Below, in pieces: positions 5,627 to 56,300 of a stretch of 64,000 nucleotides of DNA. Location of the stretch: positions 248,001 to 312,000 of the forward strand of contig NZ_CP143889.1 of the NCBI RefSeq assembly GCF_036417355.1, given 5' to 3'. The notes under the pieces were generated by a model. It saw only the letters and a program-made list of their open reading frames with translations. It made no database searches and was not told the origin of the DNA. Position numbers and translations under genes: made by a program. The stretch is from Akkermansia sp. RCC_12PD. GTDB taxonomy: Bacteria > Verrucomicrobiota > Verrucomicrobiia > Verrucomicrobiales > Akkermansiaceae. Within the stretch, counting starts at the first letter, position 1; the number at the start of each line of letters is the position of its first letter.

Positions 5627-6960
5627 ATGAAACGCATTTCCTTCAATGCCGGGGAGCTCTCCCCGGAACTCTTCCAGAGCGCCGATCTCAACGCCTTCCA
5701 CCGCGGCGCCTCCACCCTGGTCAACAGGAACGCCTCCCAGATGGATTCCCTGCGCCGCCGCAGGGGCATGGCCCCCTTCGCGGAGGCCGGGGACCACTCC
5801 CGCCTGGCCCCTACATCTACTCCAATTCCGGCAACGAGCGCTTCCTCATGGAAATCTCAGGGGATGTCCTGCACGTCCTCTCTCCGAATTCCGGCGAAGA
5901 ACTCGTGGAGGAACTCGCCTACACGGCCAACGAACTCAACCAGTACACCCGGATTGAAGAAGGGAGGGAAACTCCCTTCGCACCGCAATATGACTCCAAC
6001 GGCAACCAGGTATTCATCAAGGCCGCAACGTATACAATGTGCCAGCCGGGACGGCAATACGGTGGTAGAATGCTGCTATGACTACCAGGGCCGCCGCTAC
6101 ATGAAGAAAGTAACCGTCAACGGAACGGTCACCAGCCATGAACGCTACCTGTACCGCGGCTACCTGCAACTAGCGGCCCTGGACATGCTCAACCGCCGGA
6201 ACGTGCTCCGGACACTGTTGTGGGATCCCCTGGAACCGATGGCCACGCGGCCTCTGGCTCTGGTGCAGGATAATGCCCTGTACTGCTATGGCGTTGACTT
6301 TAACAAGAATGTGACGGAGGTGTTCGACGCGCAGGGAACAATCGCGGCGGCTTACGATTACTCTCTCTATGGACACGTGGCTTCCACGGGAGACCTTGTC
6401 CAGCCGGTGCAGTGGTCCAGCGAGATGAACGACGCGGAACTCGCCCTGGTCTATTACAATTACCGCTATTACAACCCGGTTGATGGCAGGTGGATCAACA
6501 GAGATCCCATCGCTGAAGAAGGGGGTTGGAATTTGTACGGGTTTGTTAAGAACGACGCCATAAGTAAAAATGATTTATTGGGGATGGCTGTAACTACTTT
6601 GGATACGCCTGCAGGGATACAAGCTATAATAAATTTGGCTAAAGTTACAGGAGCAGGAGTTGAATTACGGCCAATCAATTAAACAATGAATGTACAATAG
6701 TCCATCAAGTAACAGATCCTCCTGTTTTGTTTAATGTTGAGTGTGAACAAGAATGCTCTCGTCAGAAATGGTATTATTTGCCATGTTTTAATAAAGAAGG
6801 AACAGGTTTTAGAATGGGAAGAATGGTGTGTACTCAAGGATTATTCAAAAAATATTGGAAATTTATTGGTTGGGAAGGTGCCCCTTATGGTTGTAGTGCT
6901 GCTGGTCAATGTGGTTCTTGTTGTGATAATGGCACTGTAACTTATGAAGATAAACTGTGA
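5627..6960 (+). pseudogene. Rhs copy A: phage-tail-like start fused to Rhs core and a Cys-rich tip, frameshifted
   Basis: ATG 5627 begins about 60 residues with FNAGELSPELF and a DLNAFHRGASTLVNRN stretch, resembling the start of phage tail/virion proteins that carry an FNAGELSP motif. The frame then shifts near 5810, where one C seems lost in GCCCCTAC, and continues as YIYSNSGNERF in another frame. At EELAYTANELNQ it joins sequence nearly identical to the main Rhs gene (3,586 onward). A second shift near 6045 precedes VTVNGTVTSHERY, then the core is intact to GGWNLYGF. A third shift near 6670 leads to a Cys-rich tip ending at 6960. At least three frame changes make it non-functional as one protein, although the final core-plus-tip portion (about 6,060-6,681) is open. 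Confidence 0.8.
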
Positions 6961-7349
6961 TGAATAATGCGATTAAAGTTATTGTTGCGGCAAAATACTA
7001 TATTATAGGAGTTTTATTAGGGATTTTTTTATGTTGGCCGTTTGATTACCTTCAACTGGAGAATGCTGATGGGTATGCCGAATATAAAAAAGCCAGATCA
7101 GCATATGAAAGTTATTTGAAAAAATACGGTAAAGAACCTTGCAATATTAATTTCCTTCCCGAAGACATCAGGGAGAATATAGGAAAACACGATTATCCTA
7201 TTAAATTTATCGAGGAAACAGGAAATTTAACATATAAGTATCCTAGGCCATATCCTTATGGAAAATCCAATTTGATTGATTATATCTTTTGCAAAAAAAT
7301 GGTAGTAGGCAGTATTATAGGTCATATAGATGATAGGAACTGCAAATGA
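6960..7349 (+). CDS. Small membrane-anchored protein, candidate immunity for tip A
   Basis: A 129-residue product. ATG 6960 overlaps the stop of the Cys-rich tip by one base (TGATG), a typical coupled start; an in-frame GTG at 6957 is the alternative. One N-terminal transmembrane segment (YYIIGVLLGIFLCW, about residues 12-26) is followed by a hydrophilic, tyrosine- and lysine-rich domain of about 95 residues with two late cysteines. No family recognised. AT-rich like the other array genes. The position right behind a toxin tip supports an immunity role; nothing in the sequence proves it. Confidence 0.6.
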   Translation: MNNAIKVIVAAKYYIIGVLLGIFLCWPFDYLQLENADGYAEYKKARSAYESYLKKYGKEPCNINFLPEDIRENIGKHDYPIKFIEETGNLTYKYPRPYPYGKSNLIDYIFCKKMVVGSIIGHIDDRNCK

Positions 7350-9231: not shown

Positions 9232-9876
9232 ATGAATATATTTTTATTTTGTTTTTTAACTTTATTTTTTTCTTATAGTCTATTCGGGAAAAATTCAGAA
9301 AAAGAGGTAGTTGTTAATATTTCTAATATGTCCGATATAGAAAAAGCTAATTTTTCTAGCATTTTATTATATATTGATGATTCCAATGTTTCTTGGAATA
9401 ACGTATTAATATACCTAATGAAAATTAATTCAATTGGTGTAAAAGATATCAGCATGGGCAAAAATGGTGATATTATAAATATATCATCGAATGGGATTGA
9501 AGATGACATCAAGGTAGTTAGGTATTCTGTCGATAAAAAAACAAAAATAAATTTTAAAAAAGAAATTAATATTGACAGCATCAATCATTCGATAGGTCAA
9601 TATGTATTGATATATTGGCCCATAAATGCATGGAGGAATGACTGTCTAAGAAAAATCAGCGTAATGATTTTTAAAACAAAAATAGACTCTTTAAAAGATA
9701 AGAAAATAGGATTGAATTTTTGTATTGATAAAAACGTTTCCATTGGTGATGTTTTCTGTTATCTATCTGTACTATCTCAACATCGTAATTGTGTAGGAAT
9801 AGTTTTTTCATACAATTTTATCTTCAATCCTGAATATTATCAACTCTCTCCAAATATCAGTTCTGAACTTCCTTAA
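9232..9876 (+). CDS. Secreted protein of unknown function, candidate immunity
   Basis: A 214-residue protein. The frame opens earlier, with TTG 9172 inside the preceding tip fragment, but ATG 9232 gives a good signal peptide (MNIFLFCFLTLFFSYSLFG), so I take that. The mature part has two similar-looking halves, each with a hydrophobic beta-strand pattern followed by a stretch like VSWNNVLIYLMKI or VSIGDVFCYLSVLS. This hints at an internal duplication loosely reminiscent of ExbD-type periplasmic domains; that resemblance is weak. Immunity role is inferred from the tip directly upstream. Confidence 0.6.
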   Translation: MNIFLFCFLTLFFSYSLFGKNSEKEVVVNISNMSDIEKANFSSILLYIDDSNVSWNNVLIYLMKINSIGVKDISMGKNGDIINISSNGIEDDIKVVRYSVDKKTKINFKKEINIDSINHSIGQYVLIYWPINAWRNDCLRKISVMIFKTKIDSLKDKKIGLNFCIDKNVSIGDVFCYLSVLSQHRNCVGIVFSYNFIFNPEYYQLSPNISSELP

Positions 9877-49755: not shown

Positions 49756-50535
49756 ATGCCCCAGCCCTTTCCCCAGAACCCGGTCCCGGGTGGTGAATCC
49801 GCCGCCGCTGGTCTGGTCCATTCCGTGGAATCCTGCGGCACGGTGGACGGCCCCGGCATCCGCTTCGTCCTCTTCCTGTCCGGGTGCAGCCTGCGCTGCC
49901 GCTATTGCCACAACCCGGACGCCTCCTGCGTGCGCCGGGGCCGGAACAGAAGCGCGGCGGACGTTCTGGAAGAAATAGCCCGTTACCGGGATTTCCTGCT
50001 GGCGGCGGGCGGAGGCGTCACCCTATCCGGAGGCGATCCCCTTTTTCAACCGGACTTTTCCAAAGCCGTGCTGAAGGGATGCAAAGGCCTGGGCCTGCAC
50101 ACCTGCCTGGACACCTCCGGCCACCTGGGACGGAATGCGGATGAAGACATGCTGGCGGACACGGACATGGTCCTGCTGGACATCAAGGCATGGAACCCGG
50201 AACAGTACAAGGCCCTGACAGGCGGGGAACTGCGCCCTACCCTGCAATTCGCGGAACGCCTGGCCGCCCTCCGCAAACCCGTCTGGCTCCGGTACGTGCT
50301 GGTTCCCGGCCTCACGGACAACATGGAAGACATCGCGGAGCTCTCCCGCCATGCGGCGCGCCTGGGCAACGTGGAACGCGTGGACGTGCTGCCCTTCCAC
50401 CAGATGGGACGCTTCAAGTGGGATGAACTGAATCTGGAGTACACCTTGAAGGACGTTCCGGAACCGTCCGCGGAACTGACGGAACAGGCGCGCCATGTTT
50501 TCCGCCGGGAAGGGTTCCCGGACTGCGTGCATTAA
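49756..50535 (+). CDS. pflA: Pyruvate formate-lyase activating enzyme
   Basis: A 259-residue radical-SAM enzyme. The iron-sulfur motif CSLRCRYC (Cys44, 48, 51) is followed by the SAM-binding GGVTLSGGDPLFQ near residue 85. It generates the glycyl radical on PflB. AGGA sits 6 bases before ATG 49756, and the short gap to pflB indicates one transcript. Confidence 0.95.
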   Translation: MPQPFPQNPVPGGESAAAGLVHSVESCGTVDGPGIRFVLFLSGCSLRCRYCHNPDASCVRRGRNRSAADVLEEIARYRDFLLAAGGGVTLSGGDPLFQPDFSKAVLKGCKGLGLHTCLDTSGHLGRNADEDMLADTDMVLLDIKAWNPEQYKALTGGELRPTLQFAERLAALRKPVWLRYVLVPGLTDNMEDIAELSRHAARLGNVERVDVLPFHQMGRFKWDELNLEYTLKDVPEPSAELTEQARHVFRREGFPDCVH

Positions 50536-50537
50536 AA

Positions 50538-50774
50538 TCATTTCTGTGTAAAATCACGGCGGCACGGCATCAATCCGTGCGGAAAGACGATCTTCCCCGA
50601 ACGTTTTACTTCCTCCAGATGCGTATCCGCATCATCTGCCGCAAACACATCGCAACGCAAGGCCGCCGTATAACGGGAACCATACGCTTTCATCTCCTCC
50701 AAAAGCGTTCTGTCCCCATCATTCCCCCACCCCGGACAGGAAAGGAGCGCCATGCACTGTTCACAAAAATCCAC
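50538..50774 (-). CDS. Possible 78-residue protein at the end of the lipid operon
   Basis: Starts at ATG 50774, 10 bases after the stop of the next gene upstream on this strand, so it would be the last gene of that operon. The sequence is charged with several cysteines (MDFCEQCMALLSCPGWGNDG, then ALRCDVFAADD). No family recognised. It is convergent with pflA, with only two bases between stops. Confidence 0.45.
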   Translation of the reverse strand: MDFCEQCMALLSCPGWGNDGDRTLLEEMKAYGSRYTAALRCDVFAADDADTHLEEVKRSGKIVFPHGLMPCRRDFTQK

Positions 50775-50783
50775 ATAATGGAA

Positions 50784-51464
50784 TCACAATCTTGCGTCAA
50801 TTACTACAAACAGTTCAACCAGTGGATCTTCCGGAGAAAGGGAGGAAAACATTTCCTCGCACTTGCGCGCCACACACACCATTTCCTTTTCATGATTCCT
50901 GACCCATTCCCAATGCTTCTTCAAGCCTTCCACGGAAGCCCTTCCGCATATTCCAGCCATGCGACGCAAAAAAAACTCCATTCTTGAAATCCTGATGGAG
51001 ACCTGTCCACTGAATGCCAGCCATTCCTCCTGCTCACGGTTTAACGGCAACCCGGAAAAATCATCCAGAAGGGAACTGTAAGGCTTCCTCATTGCCGTAA
51101 GTTCAAGAAGGAAGGCATCCTTAATGTCCGGACGCCCACCATCTTCATCATGGAGATAAACGCAATCCATCACCTCGTTCCTGGCCTGATCATCAAACAG
51201 CCCCTTTAATTCAGGGCGCCTTTTCAGAAAAAAATCCCGTTGTTCCCCCTCCAGCTCCAGTACATTGAATTCAAATAAAAGATCGTTGACCCGCTTCAAC
51301 AGGAAATGATATTCCACAAGCATCCCGGGTGCGGCAGGATATCCGGCATCCAGAATATCCAGCATCAGCTTGTTCAGGCGGTTGGAAGACAGCATCAAAT
51401 CACGGTAGCATGCCGCCGCTGTTTCCGCGTCAGGAATGGAAAAGAAAACCATCTTATTACTCAA
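50784..51464 (-). CDS. Helical protein of unknown function
   Basis: A 226-residue, soluble, mostly helical protein (LMLSSNRLNKLMLDILDAGY, HFLLKRVNDLLFEFNVLEL, RMEFFLRRMAGICG). No catalytic motif, signal peptide or known family. It starts 29 bases after the three-domain membrane protein on the same strand, so it is probably co-transcribed with the lipid genes. Confidence 0.65.
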   Translation of the reverse strand: MSNKMVFFSIPDAETAAACYRDLMLSSNRLNKLMLDILDAGYPAAPGMLVEYHFLLKRVNDLLFEFNVLELEGEQRDFFLKRRPELKGLFDDQARNEVMDCVYLHDEDGGRPDIKDAFLLELTAMRKPYSSLLDDFSGLPLNREQEEWLAFSGQVSIRISRMEFFLRRMAGICGRASVEGLKKHWEWVRNHEKEMVCVARKCEEMFSSLSPEDPLVELFVVIDARL

Positions 51465-51493
51465 GGAGGAAGTTTTTCTTCATCTCTCCCCCC

Positions 51494-53479
51494 TCACGAA
51501 GTAAGCCGGGCAAACCTCTTGTTGGAGTCGGGAAAATCCGTACTCATGCAGAACGCATAAAGCAATCCCAGCAATACTCCCGGAAGCAGGGAGGAAACGT
51601 GCCATTCCGGTGCCGGAACGGGAATCATGGAAGAGGGAATGTTCCAGAAAACAAAGGCCAGTACCGCGAATCCGACAGAGAGCCACTGATAGTCGGAAAG
51701 CCCCGCATGGCGAAGGGTCTGAGGCTCTCCGCGGTAAGCTTCTTCCACGAACCGGGAAAGCCCGGAGAGCATGAAATAAAGCCCAATCAGCAGCCCGGCA
51801 GGCATCCCGCCATACCACAGGCGCACCAGAATCCAGCCGGAAAGGAGATTAAAGCCTATGGAATACAGCGGTGTGGGATGAAGCGGAATTCCCCTCCATT
51901 CCGTCAATCTGCATACGCGTGAGGCCGGATTTTCATGGACAATACCCCATGAGGCGTGTTCAGGAGAGACGGGATGTCCGTGGCAGCATCCCTGGACAAG
52001 GCAGCGCAGCCGCCCGATGGCCTGGACCCACGGGGAGGACACGGCCATGGCTCCGAACAGGACCCAGCCGTTGAAGGGCTCCCCTGGAGACATGAGGGGC
52101 TGCAGAACGGCGGCGAGAGCCACTCCGGCCAATCCCCCGAGAACAGAGCCGTAATAACCAAAAGGCCTCAACAGCCTGGAAGACCCTTCGACGATTTGTG
52201 CCCACAGCCCGGCTCCGGCCAGAGAGCACAGCGCCACGACAGCAACGGCACCTCCGTAGGCTTCTCCGGCCAGGGCTGTAGAAAGAACATACCCGAAAAA
52301 GGCGGCAAGAAATACGTATACGGCATGATTGATGATGCGGTAGGGGCCAAACCTCCAGCTGGTCCAGGAATTGGCAAGGCGTTCAGCAAGCTTCAGCAAA
52401 AAAGCGGCCGTGCGGCGATATCCGGCAACCAGAAGAAAGACCCCCAGGGCGCCGAGAACATCCAGCCAGCCGTGCATCCCCGTGGCAACGCAACTCCAGG
52501 CCAGGGCGGCGGCCCAGAAAAAGGCGGCAATTCCGGCCGGTCGTGAAACGTCACGCCACAGGAAGAAGGCGGTAATCAAGGCCCACAGCACGTGAAAGGA
52601 AGGAAAAGCCACGCAACAGTCAGGCAATTCCCGGCGGTCCAGCAGCAGGGCATGCCCGGCCAGCGTCTCCGGCTGGAACTCCTTAAGGGGGCAGGAAAAA
52701 GGGATCATCAGGAACAAAAACAGCCCCAGGCCAAAACAGCCGTACACCATCACCTCCATGCGCCTCAGCCTCCGGCAGGTATTGGAAAAAAACAGAAGGA
52801 CAAGAGGAACGATGATGTAAATGCTCTGGTAAACCCAGACGGCGCTTTCTGAAACCACGTTCCCGGATTCTCCGAACACGCGGCAATCCGGAGCGCCTTC
52901 CGTCACGCGCGTCAAGGCTCCGCCATAATACGCGGCAGCCCAGAACGCCCCTATCAAGACAAGGCCCGTACACCTTCTGTGCCATCCGGCCGGCTCATCC
53001 GTATTCGGCGGCAGTCCCGCCAGCGTAGGCGGAGCGGATGTTCCAAAGCGGCGGATCAAATCCAACCGCTCATAGCCCCAGACAATGGCGAGGCACCCCA
53101 TGACGGCCAGCGGAGTCATCACATACAGCCCGGCGGCCGATCCCGTCCACAGAGAGATGCCCGCACAGGCCAGGCAGAATCCCACGTAAATCGGATGGGG
53201 AACTAATCCGTAAAATCCGGAGGAGACGAACCGGGGGGGAGGAAAGGCATTCATGGGAAGACCGCCTCCCTGTTTTTTCAGGGCCATCATGGAACCTCCC
53301 ATCAGAATGGCCCCGGCCAAAACTGCGGTCATGCCCGCCGCCGTGGAATGGATGGGCTCCAGCTTCATGAACGGCTCCCACGCCCGTGCACCGCTCCAAA
53401 GCAGGCAGGGAATGAAAACGCAGAAGACGAATGCGTAGAAGCACCGCCCGGACAGCAGCTTTTTAAAAAATTGGATCAT
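51494..53479 (-). CDS. Three-domain membrane protein: methyltransferase-like, PAP2-like and Lgt-like
   Basis: A 661-residue polytopic protein. ATG 53479 overlaps the upstream stop as ATGA; ATG 53485 is the alternative and adds two residues. Domain one (to about residue 150) has LVPHPIYVGFCL, the helix motif of isoprenylcysteine/phospholipid methyltransferase-like proteins. Domain two (about 220-355) is PAP2-like: CVAFPSFHVLW and TGMHGWLDVLGA, with the His and Asp of the phosphatase site. Domain three (about 385-645) resembles prolipoprotein diacylglyceryl transferase: AIGRLRCLVQGCCHG, HPTPLYSIGFNLL and RFVEEAYRGEP. About eighteen helices in all. It likely acts on lipid substrates in the inner membrane. 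I know no protein with this exact combination. Confidence 0.8.
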   Translation of the reverse strand: MIQFFKKLLSGRCFYAFVFCVFIPCLLWSGARAWEPFMKLEPIHSTAAGMTAVLAGAILMGGSMMALKKQGGGLPMNAFPPPRFVSSGFYGLVPHPIYVGFCLACAGISLWTGSAAGLYVMTPLAVMGCLAIVWGYERLDLIRRFGTSAPPTLAGLPPNTDEPAGWHRRCTGLVLIGAFWAAAYYGGALTRVTEGAPDCRVFGESGNVVSESAVWVYQSIYIIVPLVLLFFSNTCRRLRRMEVMVYGCFGLGLFLFLMIPFSCPLKEFQPETLAGHALLLDRRELPDCCVAFPSFHVLWALITAFFLWRDVSRPAGIAAFFWAAALAWSCVATGMHGWLDVLGALGVFLLVAGYRRTAAFLLKLAERLANSWTSWRFGPYRIINHAVYVFLAAFFGYVLSTALAGEAYGGAVAVVALCSLAGAGLWAQIVEGSSRLLRPFGYYGSVLGGLAGVALAAVLQPLMSPGEPFNGWVLFGAMAVSSPWVQAIGRLRCLVQGCCHGHPVSPEHASWGIVHENPASRVCRLTEWRGIPLHPTPLYSIGFNLLSGWILVRLWYGGMPAGLLIGLYFMLSGLSRFVEEAYRGEPQTLRHAGLSDYQWLSVGFAVLAFVFWNIPSSMIPVPAPEWHVSSLLPGVLLGLLYAFCMSTDFPDSNKRFARLTS

Positions 53480-54300
53480 ACGCATGGGGGATGAAAATGG
53501 ACAACTTCGTGAATGGAAAATCCGGGGCAGGCAGCGCCCCCGTGGAGGAACAGGGCAACCCCCGCCCATTTGGTTTCTCGAAGGTGGAGAATGGACTGTG
53601 GCACCAGCCGTTTGGCCGCTCCGGGGAAATAGCGCAGGGCCGTGCGGGAAATATCTCCCGTTCGCAGCACTTTTCCCTGAGAAAACTCAAGGCTGTTTCC
53701 GGCAAACGAACCGCCGAACGCAATGCGGGAACCGTCGGCGGCAGCGCGAAGCTCCGGAGCCGGCAGGATCTGCCTGCCGCCCTCAAGCAGAAGAGACAGG
53801 GGATGTTCCCCTTCCCATGAAATCCAGGTAAGCGCTTCACCTCCATCGCCGTGAAAACGCCCCCAGTGCAGTACATCCACGGGCAGCTTCCACGGTTCCA
53901 CGTTCATGGTCAGGCATTCCACATAGCCATTTCCCGTTTCACGCTTTCCATGCAGGGAAAAACAAACCTGCGCACGGGGCACCAGGCATTGCCAAACGAC
54001 TTTTCTTCCACCCGCCTGCTCATAGAGGACAGCCTCCGGAACCGGAGAACCTCCGCCCGTCCATCTGCCGCGCGCGCCCAGAGCAGGGCAATGCCAGTTC
54101 CACCCTCCGTTCACGGACTCCGGCAATCTCCCGCGGAAAAAACTCTGCCTAGCATAAGTTCCCTCTGGTGCATTCACCAGAACGGACGACTGCCTCAACT
54201 GCATGTTCGCGAATGCCAGGTCAGAGGCATAACAAAGAATGACTTTCCCGGAGGAAGTCACGCAATCCATATAATACTTGGTGAGGGAAAACCGGCTCAT
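53476..54300 (-). CDS. Lipocalin-like protein of unknown function in the lipid operon
   Basis: A 274-residue protein starting MSRFSLTKYYMDCVTSSGKV. The aromatic- and Gly-rich beta pattern (VNGGWNWHCPALGARGRW, GNGYVECLTMNVEPWKLP, WISWEGEHPLSLLLEGGRQI) resembles the barrel of CrtC/AttH-type lipocalin-like proteins that bind or modify hydrophobic molecules. The resemblance is only in pattern. Its stop overlaps the start of the three-domain protein by four bases, implying translational coupling and a shared job. Confidence 0.6.
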   Translation of the reverse strand: MSRFSLTKYYMDCVTSSGKVILCYASDLAFANMQLRQSSVLVNAPEGTYARQSFFRGRLPESVNGGWNWHCPALGARGRWTGGGSPVPEAVLYEQAGGRKVVWQCLVPRAQVCFSLHGKRETGNGYVECLTMNVEPWKLPVDVLHWGRFHGDGGEALTWISWEGEHPLSLLLEGGRQILPAPELRAAADGSRIAFGGSFAGNSLEFSQGKVLRTGDISRTALRYFPGAAKRLVPQSILHLRETKWAGVALFLHGGAACPGFSIHEVVHFHPPCV

Positions 54301-54374
54301 GGTCGGCAGGAGTCAGGCAGAGGGGGGAAAGGCGGAAAACCCTTCACTTCCTTTAGCACGGACATGACTGACGG

Positions 54375-56300
54375 TCAAGACTTCCCGGAAATTTCGGCCA
54401 GAGCGTTCAGCACTTCCTGTACGGAAATGCTGCGGTTGCAGGGGGTGCCGCGGTCGCATTCCCTCAGGAAACACGGGGAACAGCACCGGTGGCTGTACAG
54501 GGAGCGGTGGAACTGCCCCAGCGGACGGCACACGTCCGGAAGCCTGGTGGAAAACAGAGTCACCGTCGGAAGGCCGCGGCAGGAGCAGAGAGAGGGAATA
54601 ACACCGTCCACGGCAATGGCCGCCGCCGCCGCATCCATGACGGGGAACAGATCTTCCGGCGCCCCGGCCTTCATCTCCACCTGCAGCCGTTCCGCCAGGG
54701 CGGAAGCCCGCGCGCGGTCTTCCTCCAAGGCGACCAACACCGGCCTGTCCGGCAGGGAGCGCACCAGCTCCTCCCATTGCTCCTCCCCCCATTCACTGGC
54801 AGTCCCCAGCGTGGAAAACGGAGCGACCAGAATGGGAGCGCCCTCCCCGGCATCCGCCTTTTTCGCGGTAAACATGGAAGGGTTCCAGATGTCCAGGCCA
54901 TGCAAATCCCCCAGCTGCAAATAGGGCCGGACACGGTGGACGGGAGGAGCCGCCTTCAGCACGGGAGCTTTTACCCGGAACTTGTACTTCCGGCATCCGG
55001 GATGGGTGTCCAGGCCGGAAAACATCATGGGGCCATACGGTGCCAGAGCCTTGAGGGTTTCCATATCCTGGTCCAGCATGACGCCCAGATCCAGGGGGCC
55101 TTCATTGTAAAACTCATCCGCGGCCAATGCTTCCCGGAGCTGCTTCAGGGAATCATGCGGCAGGACATGGGCCACTTCCTCAAATGTTTTCCAAACGCCC
55201 GCCTGGTCGGACGGGCAGATGACGCTCACCTGCATGTCCGGCCTGGCGCCCTTCAGCGCCCTGATCAATGGAACGGTCAGCAAGGCTTCATCCAGAGCCC
55301 TGGGAACGGCCACCAAAATGCGGTACGGCTTCAGTTCCATCTTCTCCAAAAGCCTGAACGTCTTTTCATCCCTGGGAGCAAAACGGTCGATGGACTTCCA
55401 GCGGTGGTGCATCCAGAACACGTCCAGAACGGACTTGCCGATCAACTTTTCCAAATGCCTGTTCACCTCCACAGTATCCCCGGCCAGGGAACCGTCGGAA
55501 CCGGAAAAATCCATCACATTGCCCATATCCGCGATCCAGTGGCCCGGCTTGTCCGTACGCACGGCAATCGCCACCATGTCCGCCCCGGTCCGCTTGCGCA
55601 GCAGGGCGGGCAGCGGCGTCGTTCCGGTCACCTTGCCGAAGAAGGGCACATACACCCCTTCCCAGACGAACTGGTCGCTCAGAACGCCCAGCGCGCCCCC
55701 TTCCTTGAGCATCTTCATTGGCGCCTTGATGCCGCCCTCCTTGGAAAACATCTGCGTGCCCCGCTCCGTGCGGCGCCTGTACATGTATTCCTCCATCAGA
55801 GGATTGTCAAACTGGCGGTACATGGAGCCGTAACGCTCAATCTCCGGATAAAACACGCGTATTCTCGCCAGCACCTCCCAATTTCCGGAATGGGCAATGG
55901 CGCACACCTGCCCGCGCCCTTCCAGCACAGGCCGGGCAAAGGCCTCGTGCCCCGTGATTTCCACGCACTTTTTCAACTGGTCATCCGTCAGAATGGCCGT
56001 CTTGGCGGAACACAGGAAATTGGCGATCGTCCTCTTGAAATTCTCCTTGCCCAGCTTCTTCAGCTCCCTGCCGCGCAAGGCCGGATTCAGGGCGATGCGC
56101 AGATTCCTTTCCACAATCTTCCGGCGCTGTGGCAGCAAATGCCATGCCGCGCCGCCGGCCACGCGCCCCAGGCGGAACAGCGTCTTCATGCCCACAAGCT
56201 TCAGCAGCCCCTCCATCAGCAGGAATCCCTTCATCCCCGCATAATGGACAAACGCCTTCCGGGAGGAAGGGGGAGGATCGGATGAAAGAGAGCTCGCCAT
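54375..56300 (-). CDS. Lysophospholipid-acyltransferase/heptosyltransferase fusion
   Basis: A 641-residue protein from ATG 56300 (MASSLSSDPPPSSRK); an open extension to 56,345 is not used. The N-terminal ~300 residues are an LpxL/HtrB-type acyltransferase with the catalytic AHSGNWEVL (His137, Glu142) and RYGSMYRQFDNPLMEEYM. From about residue 326 a glycosyltransferase family 9 domain follows (YRILVAVPRALDEALLTVPL). It ends in the Cys-rich tail CCSPCFLRECDRGTPC, typical of heptosyltransferase relatives. Both domains act on lipid A and core sugars, so the fusion would link acylation and sugar addition during lipopolysaccharide assembly. It is 74 bases upstream of the lipocalin-like gene. Confidence 0.88.
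   Translation of the reverse strand: MASSLSSDPPPSSRKAFVHYAGMKGFLLMEGLLKLVGMKTLFRLGRVAGGAAWHLLPQRRKIVERNLRIALNPALRGRELKKLGKENFKRTIANFLCSAKTAILTDDQLKKCVEITGHEAFARPVLEGRGQVCAIAHSGNWEVLARIRVFYPEIERYGSMYRQFDNPLMEEYMYRRRTERGTQMFSKEGGIKAPMKMLKEGGALGVLSDQFVWEGVYVPFFGKVTGTTPLPALLRKRTGADMVAIAVRTDKPGHWIADMGNVMDFSGSDGSLAGDTVEVNRHLEKLIGKSVLDVFWMHHRWKSIDRFAPRDEKTFRLLEKMELKPYRILVAVPRALDEALLTVPLIRALKGARPDMQVSVICPSDQAGVWKTFEEVAHVLPHDSLKQLREALAADEFYNEGPLDLGVMLDQDMETLKALAPYGPMMFSGLDTHPGCRKYKFRVKAPVLKAAPPVHRVRPYLQLGDLHGLDIWNPSMFTAKKADAGEGAPILVAPFSTLGTASEWGEEQWEELVRSLPDRPVLVALEEDRARASALAERLQVEMKAGAPEDLFPVMDAAAAAIAVDGVIPSLCSCRGLPTVTLFSTRLPDVCRPLGQFHRSLYSHRCCSPCFLRECDRGTPCNRSISVQEVLNALAEISGKS

Follow-up and report, generated by a model that had tools for sequence, protein, structure and literature searches.

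A conserved gene pair, accessory in Akkermansia, for a lipocalin-like protein and a fused methyltransferase-PAP2-Lgt membrane enzyme with predicted lipid chemistry

Do five closely spaced genes of an Akkermansia genome form a single pathway for an uncommon envelope lipid, and if not, which of them belong together? The genes lie at positions 50538-56300 of a stretch of 64,000 nucleotides (hereafter the window) from Akkermansia sp. RCC_12PD (NZ_CP143889.1, positions 248,001 to 312,000), the genome of which is a single contig of 3.17 Mb. The initial annotation proposed one tight operon leading from an acylated sugar carrier through a hydrophobic-ligand binder to a membrane modification, and its five minus-strand open reading frames (ORFs), with gaps of 74, -4, 29 and 9 bp, were reproduced exactly. 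We found, however, that it is the two middle genes that make up the conserved unit, encoding a lipocalin-like protein and a membrane enzyme composed of a methyltransferase, a PAP2 and an Lgt domain; the stop codon of the former and the start codon of the latter are joined in an ATGA overlap (-4 bp). We lean towards the view that the pair makes an unusual lipid by methylation, headgroup or phosphate chemistry and diacylglyceryl transfer. The folds involved are already known, and what is new is the Lgt/PAP2/methyltransferase fusion together with its dedicated barrel partner. No description of the pair, the three-domain fusion or the barrel family was found among the open-licence PMC papers listed, judged by titles and abstract openings.

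The conservation of the pair is most evident outside Akkermansia. Scanning the contigs of 84,980 species genomes with a three-row alignment of the enzyme yielded 52 loci, and the same scan with the single enzyme protein of the window gave no matches. These loci, mostly from metagenome-assembled genomes (MAGs), belong to six phyla, namely Verrucomicrobiota, Planctomycetota, Acidobacteriota, Myxococcota, Bacteroidota and Pseudomonadota. A lipocalin profile matched 50 of the 52, on the same strand as the enzyme every time, and the lipocalin ORF lies directly upstream in 49, ending no more than 220 bp from the enzyme start (no more than 90 bp in 48); three of the 49 (L142, L143 and L148) are frame-broken or cut. 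Two genes separate lipocalin and enzyme in locus L130, and L124, which is cut by the contig end, opens within the final 21 residues of a lipocalin. Every one of the 16 enzyme-bearing genomes that were searched whole carries exactly one lipocalin. The order of the pair is conserved across six phyla, whereas that of the five genes is not, as detailed below. In Hymenobacter montanus, the lipocalin (L152) was found on another contig than the enzyme (L147), a natural split of the pair.

Searches that started from the lipocalin gave a comparable picture. Among 395 Bacteroidota genomes, nine were positive, one of them being the search centre (at most six candidates scored per genome), and the full enzyme is adjacent in eight, while the ninth (L170) carries a methyltransferase-Lgt variant beyond a cytochrome P450 gene. 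Among 297 Acidobacteriota genomes, the lipocalin was detected in six (including the search centre; at most eight candidates per genome) and the enzyme in three (at most four): the full enzyme adjoins the lipocalin in G461, the search centre, and G907, and the two genes sit at two contig ends in G1123. A methyltransferase-PAP2 variant is adjacent to the lipocalin in a further genome of this phylum, G1068. A draw of 387 Verrucomicrobiota genomes, with at most three candidates scored in each, returned the full enzyme in the window's own genome (G000) and G015 only. Since these scans of three phyla covered the three to eight best candidates per genome, the misses in them are not firm.

Pairwise distances among lipocalins and among enzymes over the 41 shared loci correlate strongly (r = 0.85; 0 of 2000 permutations as high), a correlation that shared species history alone would also yield. 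All-against-all clustering of the called genes found no third conserved neighbour, in that no cluster beyond the pair occurred in more than four of the 52 loci; the calls were crude longest ORFs of at least 80 aa and several loci span little sequence, such that short or weakly conserved neighbours could escape. The tree unites the three Akkermansia in a clade with full support, placed beside MAGs of a Verrucomicrobiales member and a beta-proteobacterium (94/80), and five Opitutae-type Verrucomicrobiota group beside Planctomycetota. These placements, together with the sporadic presence of the pair, suggest that it has spread horizontally, with loss as an alternative. The enzyme alignment omits nine loci that are split, cut, broken or PAP2-less (L113, L129, L135, L139, L140, L141, L142, L143 and L148), and its rows for L126 and L136 are short at the N-terminus; the lipocalin alignment omits L124 and L147 (no lipocalin ORF), L142, L143 and L148 (broken), and L127, L136 and L140 (length or start doubtful). 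Neither PADLOC defence families nor plasmids gave any match (for plasmids, enzyme at E 1e-15 and lipocalin at 1e-4), and the enzyme obtained a single weak PHROG match (6.2e-4; PHROG function unknown). Decayed copies were also noticed: L148 (9239-10700) holds a pair apparently cut by a mobile element, and L179 (8298-8800) fragments of both genes. We considered L148 as a minimal, methyltransferase-only form and rejected it, as its enzyme is truncated and followed by IS3 transposase-like and phage genes (both L148 readings being by eye).

Within Akkermansia, the pair is accessory. We compared 59 genomes of relatives, 37 of which, counting the window's own, are of the genus. Three encode the full-length enzyme, G000, G015 (69% identity) and A. 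glycaniphila Pyt (G013; 51%), and the lipocalin was found in the same three, which are also the only ones among the 76 genomes of the entire genus. Matches of any kind to the enzyme were seen in 13 of the 59; ten of these are short, to the Lgt part or (G056) the methyltransferase part, and several are plain Lgts. A 64-residue lipocalin match in G032 (8.2e-5 with the single protein) was dropped by the alignment search. The acyltransferase-GT9 protein, which the initial annotation took as the first step, has matches in 57 of the 59 genomes and was rejected as a pathway partner, given that the pair is in three. Its linkage is no better: only one of the three pair-bearing Akkermansia species has it next to the pair, the two being unlinked in G015 (1.78 Mb for the acyltransferase-GT9 gene against 2.97 Mb) and on different contigs in G013. 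Two close relatives, G004 (acyltransferase-GT9 95% identical) and G017 (83%), have pflA adjoining the acyltransferase-GT9 gene with neither pair gene between, and their DNA similarity to the window stops at 50512-50513 and restarts at 54391-54399. Because similarity breaks at both junctions, the pair sits in a segment missing from these two genomes; no convincing repeats or terminators marking a mobile element were found at the junctions. Neither end of the five-gene run is conserved, as the acyltransferase-GT9 gene is unlinked elsewhere and the 226-aa protein was found in one of the 59 genomes searched, the window's own. We thus rejected the five genes as one conserved operon, the arrangement being peculiar to this one genome; what stands of the one-pathway claim is that the lipocalin-like protein and the enzyme go together.

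The three-domain architecture that the initial annotation had read from the membrane enzyme was borne out by Pfam (PEMT 2e-07, PAP2_3 1.4e-15, LGT 7.9e-18), and its structural model is confident (predicted local distance difference test, pLDDT, 92.3; predicted template modelling score, pTM, 0.91). Across 45 homologues, PEMT and LGT match all and PAP2_3 matches 42 at E <=0.01, and 44 alignment columns are invariant, many of which hold polar residues in positions of the catalytic type. The methyltransferase part exceeds the PEMT cut-off (31.9 against 25 bits) and stays below that of ICMT (16.7 against 24 bits) in the window enzyme, and ICMT matches 18 of the 45 homologues at the same E-value. 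It resembles the PEMT/ICMT membrane methyltransferases in these respects and differs from them in being fused N-terminally to other domains and in its invariant MNxFPP and PIY; M76, N77, F79, P80, P81, P96, I97, Y98, E137 and R144 are the same in all 45. The motif of the PEMT/ICMT family is usually R-N/H-P-M/I-Y.

For the PAP2 part (58 bits against a cut-off of 27 for PAP2_3), residues ~154-354 match Aur1 (Z 13.0), IPC synthase (12.8), SMSr (12.8), LpxE (12.1) and PgpB (11.8). LpxE and PgpB fall within ~1 Z unit of the three transferases, and so the domain is a predicted phosphatase or phosphotransferase, between which the fold does not separate. The His-His-Asp residues H296, H336 and D340 are each kept in 43 of the 45 homologues. 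Classical PAP2 phosphatases carry an N-terminal KxxxxxxRP motif, and inspection by eye of residues 200-300 of the window enzyme did not reveal it. A further difference from Aur1 and the other enzymes matched is that the domain is here fused between two other lipid domains.

The C-terminal part resembles Lgt, which is known for opening the maturation of lipoproteins. In the fold comparison, residues 362-616 gave Z 15.6 to E. coli Lgt (PDB 5azb) over 233 aligned positions (root-mean-square deviation 3.8), and the window enzyme scores 65.1 bits for Pfam LGT against a cut-off of 24.9. R490, C493, C498, C499, H500, G501, R576, E579, E580 and R583 are invariant in 45 of 45, and so are the equivalents of R143, G154, R239, E243 and R246 of the E. 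coli enzyme. The differences are that GCCHG replaces GELWG and that the domain is fused to two further ones; moreover, the NCBIfam equivalog models for Lgt score far under their cut-offs (NF000778, 50.8 bits against 334; TIGR00544, 28 against 118.9). Measured against E. coli Lgt (PMC4728403, PMC13251419), the domain is Lgt-like by fold and by its donor-site arginines and falls outside strict prolipoprotein Lgt; its activity is predicted. A canonical Lgt is encoded elsewhere in the window's genome, and housekeeping lipidation is therefore covered. Stand-alone Lgts of the GCC type, present in other Verrucomicrobiota, share the cysteine at the N146 position and the tyrosine or phenylalanine at the H103 position. 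Such proteins (GRIGCFLNGCCYG and similar) were seen in 21 of the 28 loci L058-L085; an isolated Lgt-like ORF of G211 (L058) looks degenerate and was left out of the counts.

The label 'lipocalin-like' agrees with the predicted fold of the partner protein, although it matches no Pfam or NCBIfam model. Its model is confident (pLDDT 93.9, pTM 0.91) and shows the double barrel of AttH/CrtC-type enzymes, 14 entries of which match with Z 17.3-20.8 over 237-254 residues, the next row being at 8.4. Named matches include CghA (20.8), Fsa2 (20.5), AttH (NE1406; 19.3) and 25-phosphosteroid lyase (18.7), as well as Phm7 and kievitone hydratase; CghA, Fsa2 and Phm7 are fungal Diels-Alderases. Foldseek gave E 5e-10 against 2ich. 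On the other hand, identity to the solved chains is 8-13% and the barrel is ~50-105 residues shorter; there was no PDB sequence match at E <=10, and none of 46 barrel members matched an AttH/CrtC-type Pfam model at E <=1. The barrel has instead an invariant set of its own, E128, K244 and E265 (46 of 46), with D12, R148 and E242 kept in 45. We infer that this polar set marks an active or ligand site and not a mere grease pocket. No signal-peptide-like start was noticed by eye in the window protein or in the six N-termini inspected. The uncommon-lipid chemistry of the initial annotation thus found backing, as the modelled folds of both proteins point that way.

Several loci with variant contents may give hints of the substrate. 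Two divergent Bacteroidota loci, L130 (1203-6159) and L168 (8962-12630), carry a prenyl-synthase-like gene immediately upstream of that for the lipocalin. Its products carry, by eye, two Asp-rich motifs, LDD[VI]VDGD and YQ[YF]D[IL]ED, as in head-to-head prenyl synthases; the L130 protein has a Pfam SQS_PSY match below the cut-off (E = 0.0081; 16.3 against 26 bits), and the L168 protein matches nothing in Pfam and nothing convincingly in the PDB. Genes of this kind were found in two of the 61 loci searched. The genes between lipocalin and enzyme in L130 are those of an ABC-2 exporter, which L170 has in common (44% and 33% identity). The Bacteroidota locus L170 (9417-15860) comprises the lipocalin, the methyltransferase-Lgt protein, a pyridoxal phosphate (PLP) decarboxylase, the P450 and the ABC-2 exporter, and the Acidobacteriota locus L178 (6953-10701) the lipocalin, a methyltransferase-PAP2 protein and a PLP decarboxylase, the decarboxylase being common to both (33%). 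The two best NCBIfam models for the L170 P450 are terpene P450s, far under their cut-offs (174/700 and 150/800 bits). The prenyl-synthase-like, ABC-2 and PLP decarboxylase neighbours are seen in two loci each and are leads only.

On these grounds we propose the following scheme, in which catalysis, the order of the steps, the substrate and the product are all predicted, and the side of the membrane is deduced from the families to which the domains belong. The cytosolic AttH/CrtC-fold protein, an enzyme or an enzyme-like binder, would modify a hydrophobic precursor, which the methyltransferase would then receive at the cytosolic face. The other two domains would act on the periplasmic side, PAP2 by removing or exchanging a phosphate-linked headgroup and Lgt by alkylating an acceptor with diacylglyceryl from phosphatidylglycerol. 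The lipid formed in this way would be methylated and non-standard, and either part of the envelope or secreted; most likely it is a methylated, headgroup-exchanged or diacylglyceryl-transferred lipid derived from the hydrophobic precursor.

A number of observations weigh against this scheme. The assignment of the methyltransferase rests on Pfam and motifs, because no ICMT or PEMT structure appeared among the fold matches of the enzyme, where one domain of a long model can be missed. In addition, the 52 loci were selected via methyltransferase-domain peptides, and the constant presence of this domain is independent in the lipocalin-first searches only. Each of the three PAP2 catalytic positions is lost in two of the 45 homologues. 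L139 and L140 lack the PAP2 part but keep both flanking domains intact; L170 has the methyltransferase and Lgt without PAP2, and L178 the methyltransferase and PAP2 without Lgt. It follows that the fusion is modular and that not every step is universal. Among the six Acidobacteriota lipocalin genomes, G963 has no enzyme found nearby, and G1110 of the same phylum holds remnants of the pair only. Lastly, six residues are given as essential in E. coli Lgt (Y26, H103, R143, N146, G154 and R239) in PMC13251419, and three of the six are changed in the window enzyme (Y26 to H385, H103 to Y443 and N146 to C493). Over the 45 homologues, the Y26 position is H in 43 and Y in two, the H103 position Y in 33, F in 11 and H in one, and the N146 position C in all. 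That article also describes Y26H and N146C in MSMEG_5408, a second Lgt homologue of M. smegmatis with an Lgt activity that is presumed to be low, and N146C also in the Lgt of Leptospira (PMC13251419).

The changed Lgt residues and the loss of PAP2 or Lgt domains in some homologues would both fit a membrane protein that is a non-catalytic fusion, for example a lipid-binding or structural one. We regard this as the least likely of the readings considered here, since it sits poorly with the 44 invariant columns and with a His-His-Asp set of which each residue persists in 43 of the 45. Hardly better placed, and very unlikely, is the five-gene pathway from acylated sugar carrier through ligand binder to membrane modification. 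The genes are indeed co-directional with short gaps in this genome; gene order has nevertheless largely refuted the pathway already, through the distribution of the acyltransferase-GT9 protein (57 of 59 genomes, against three for the full enzyme and the same three for the lipocalin), its separation from the pair in both other pair-bearing Akkermansia, the sites without the pair in G004 and G017, and the confinement of the 226-aa gene to one of the 59 genomes.

Two further readings concern the substrate. In one of them, the pair would be a bacterial analogue of CaaX processing, with a protein or peptide cysteine that the Lgt domain lipidates and the ICMT-like domain methylates. The Lgt fold, the invariant R143 and R239 equivalents, the ICMT matches in 18 of 45 homologues and, in L164, a gene for a CPBP/Rce1-like membrane protease shortly upstream of the lipocalin gene are all consistent with this. 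Yet the protease gene is present in that single locus, the pair has no recurrent peptide or protein gene as a neighbour (among crude ORF calls of at least 80 aa), and a small soluble barrel with a conserved polar set would suit a metabolite better than a protein. Furthermore, the H of the HGGL motif, which is proposed to bind prolipoprotein (PMC4728403), is replaced by Y or F in 44 of the 45 homologues. We therefore consider such a system quite improbable. An isoprenoid substrate, which is a specific form of the explanation that we prefer, is unlikely too, though less so: the barrel would hydrate, cyclise or carry out elimination on a polyprenyl or terpenoid chain, PAP2 would dephosphorylate a prenyl phosphate, the methyltransferase would methylate, and Lgt would couple the product to a glycerolipid. 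The synthase-like genes upstream of the lipocalin in L130 and L168, the sub-threshold SQS_PSY match of the former, the sterol side chain enzyme 25-phosphosteroid lyase among the barrel folds and the terpene models nearest to the L170 P450, albeit far below cut-off, all point in this direction; against it, the synthase-like gene is confined to two of the 61 loci, and one of its two products, that of L168, lacks a Pfam or convincing PDB match. We also tried the co-occurrence of squalene synthase as support and rejected it as uninformative, for 36 of 37 relatives have canonical SQS_PSY proteins whether they carry the pair or not, so that these do not discriminate.

As for the surroundings of the pair, coordinates are collected in Table 1. 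The acyltransferase-GT9 fusion was confirmed by Pfam (Lip_A_acyltrans 2.1e-32, Glyco_transf_9 5.8e-05). To our knowledge, an LpxL-type acyltransferase fused to GT9 is unusual, and the protein appeared near-universal in the order: judged by match ranges, matches span both domains in 46 of the 59 genomes, end before ~residue 461 in seven Akkermansia (G008, G014, G016, G020, G025, G026 and G034) and in G057, and come as separate pieces only in G037, G051 and G054, with G007 and G023 (84% and 90% complete) unmatched. In G004 and G017 the spacer between pflA and the acyltransferase-GT9 gene is ~420-430 bp and holds, by eye, a small XRE/HTH-like ORF (L051 ~6870-7290 and L052 ~9320-9730, respectively), which the window lacks at that place. 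Of the two remaining proteins of the initial annotation, the 226-aa ORF is gene-like by codon score (0.11), lies in a part of lower GC (~0.48, with 0.60 nearby) and matches no Pfam or NCBIfam model; the 78-aa ORF (-0.004, against -0.016 for its best other frame) is probably not a gene, and it has two sub-cut-off Pfam matches and no family above cut-off. The pair itself scores 0.06-0.09, lower than the flanking genes (0.24-0.39).

Table 1. Coordinates of the genes, enzyme domains and inserted segment, in window positions.
Feature	Position	Strand	Remark
LpxL-type acyltransferase-GT9 fusion	54375..56300 (alternative start 56345)	-	Pfam; neighbour only, outside module
Lipocalin-like AttH/CrtC-type double barrel protein, 274 aa	53476..54300	-	module core
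Fused membrane enzyme, 661 aa	51494..53479	-	module core; start overlaps lipocalin stop by 4 bp
Enzyme residues 1-158, predicted PEMT/ICMT-type S-adenosylmethionine (SAM) methyltransferase domain (MNAFPPP...PHPIY...E137...R144)	53006..53479	-	
Enzyme residues 159-360, PAP2 domain, predicted phosphatase or phosphotransferase	52400..53005	-	
Enzyme residues 361-615, Lgt (diacylglyceryl transferase) domain, GCCHG type	51635..52399	-	
226-aa ORF	50784..51464	-	weakly gene-like codon use; inside same inserted segment as pair
78-aa ORF	50538..50774	-	without coding signal; probably not a gene
Segment specific to window relative to G004 and G017	50513..54399	.	last codons of pflA to last codons of acyltransferase-GT9

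Returning to the unusual lipid that we favour as the product of the pair, a fused Lgt of the GCC type travels with a barrel enzyme and, in the window's genome, coexists with a normal Lgt encoded elsewhere, which suggests that Lgt chemistry was recruited for another lipid. It is attractive to speculate that this lipid belongs to an undescribed class, in which the Lgt domain would alkylate a non-protein acceptor supplied by the barrel protein (a hydroxylated isoprenoid, or an amine or thiol metabolite) to give a methylated hybrid lipid with an ether, amine or thioether linkage, a rather unlikely but consequential version of the scheme. If this is the case, at least six phyla, with some gut Akkermansia among them, would use Lgt chemistry to make natural products or membrane lipids. 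The small module is present in a named strain, A. glycaniphila Pyt, and the envelope or secreted lipid that it is predicted to make may set a few Akkermansia species apart from the rest.

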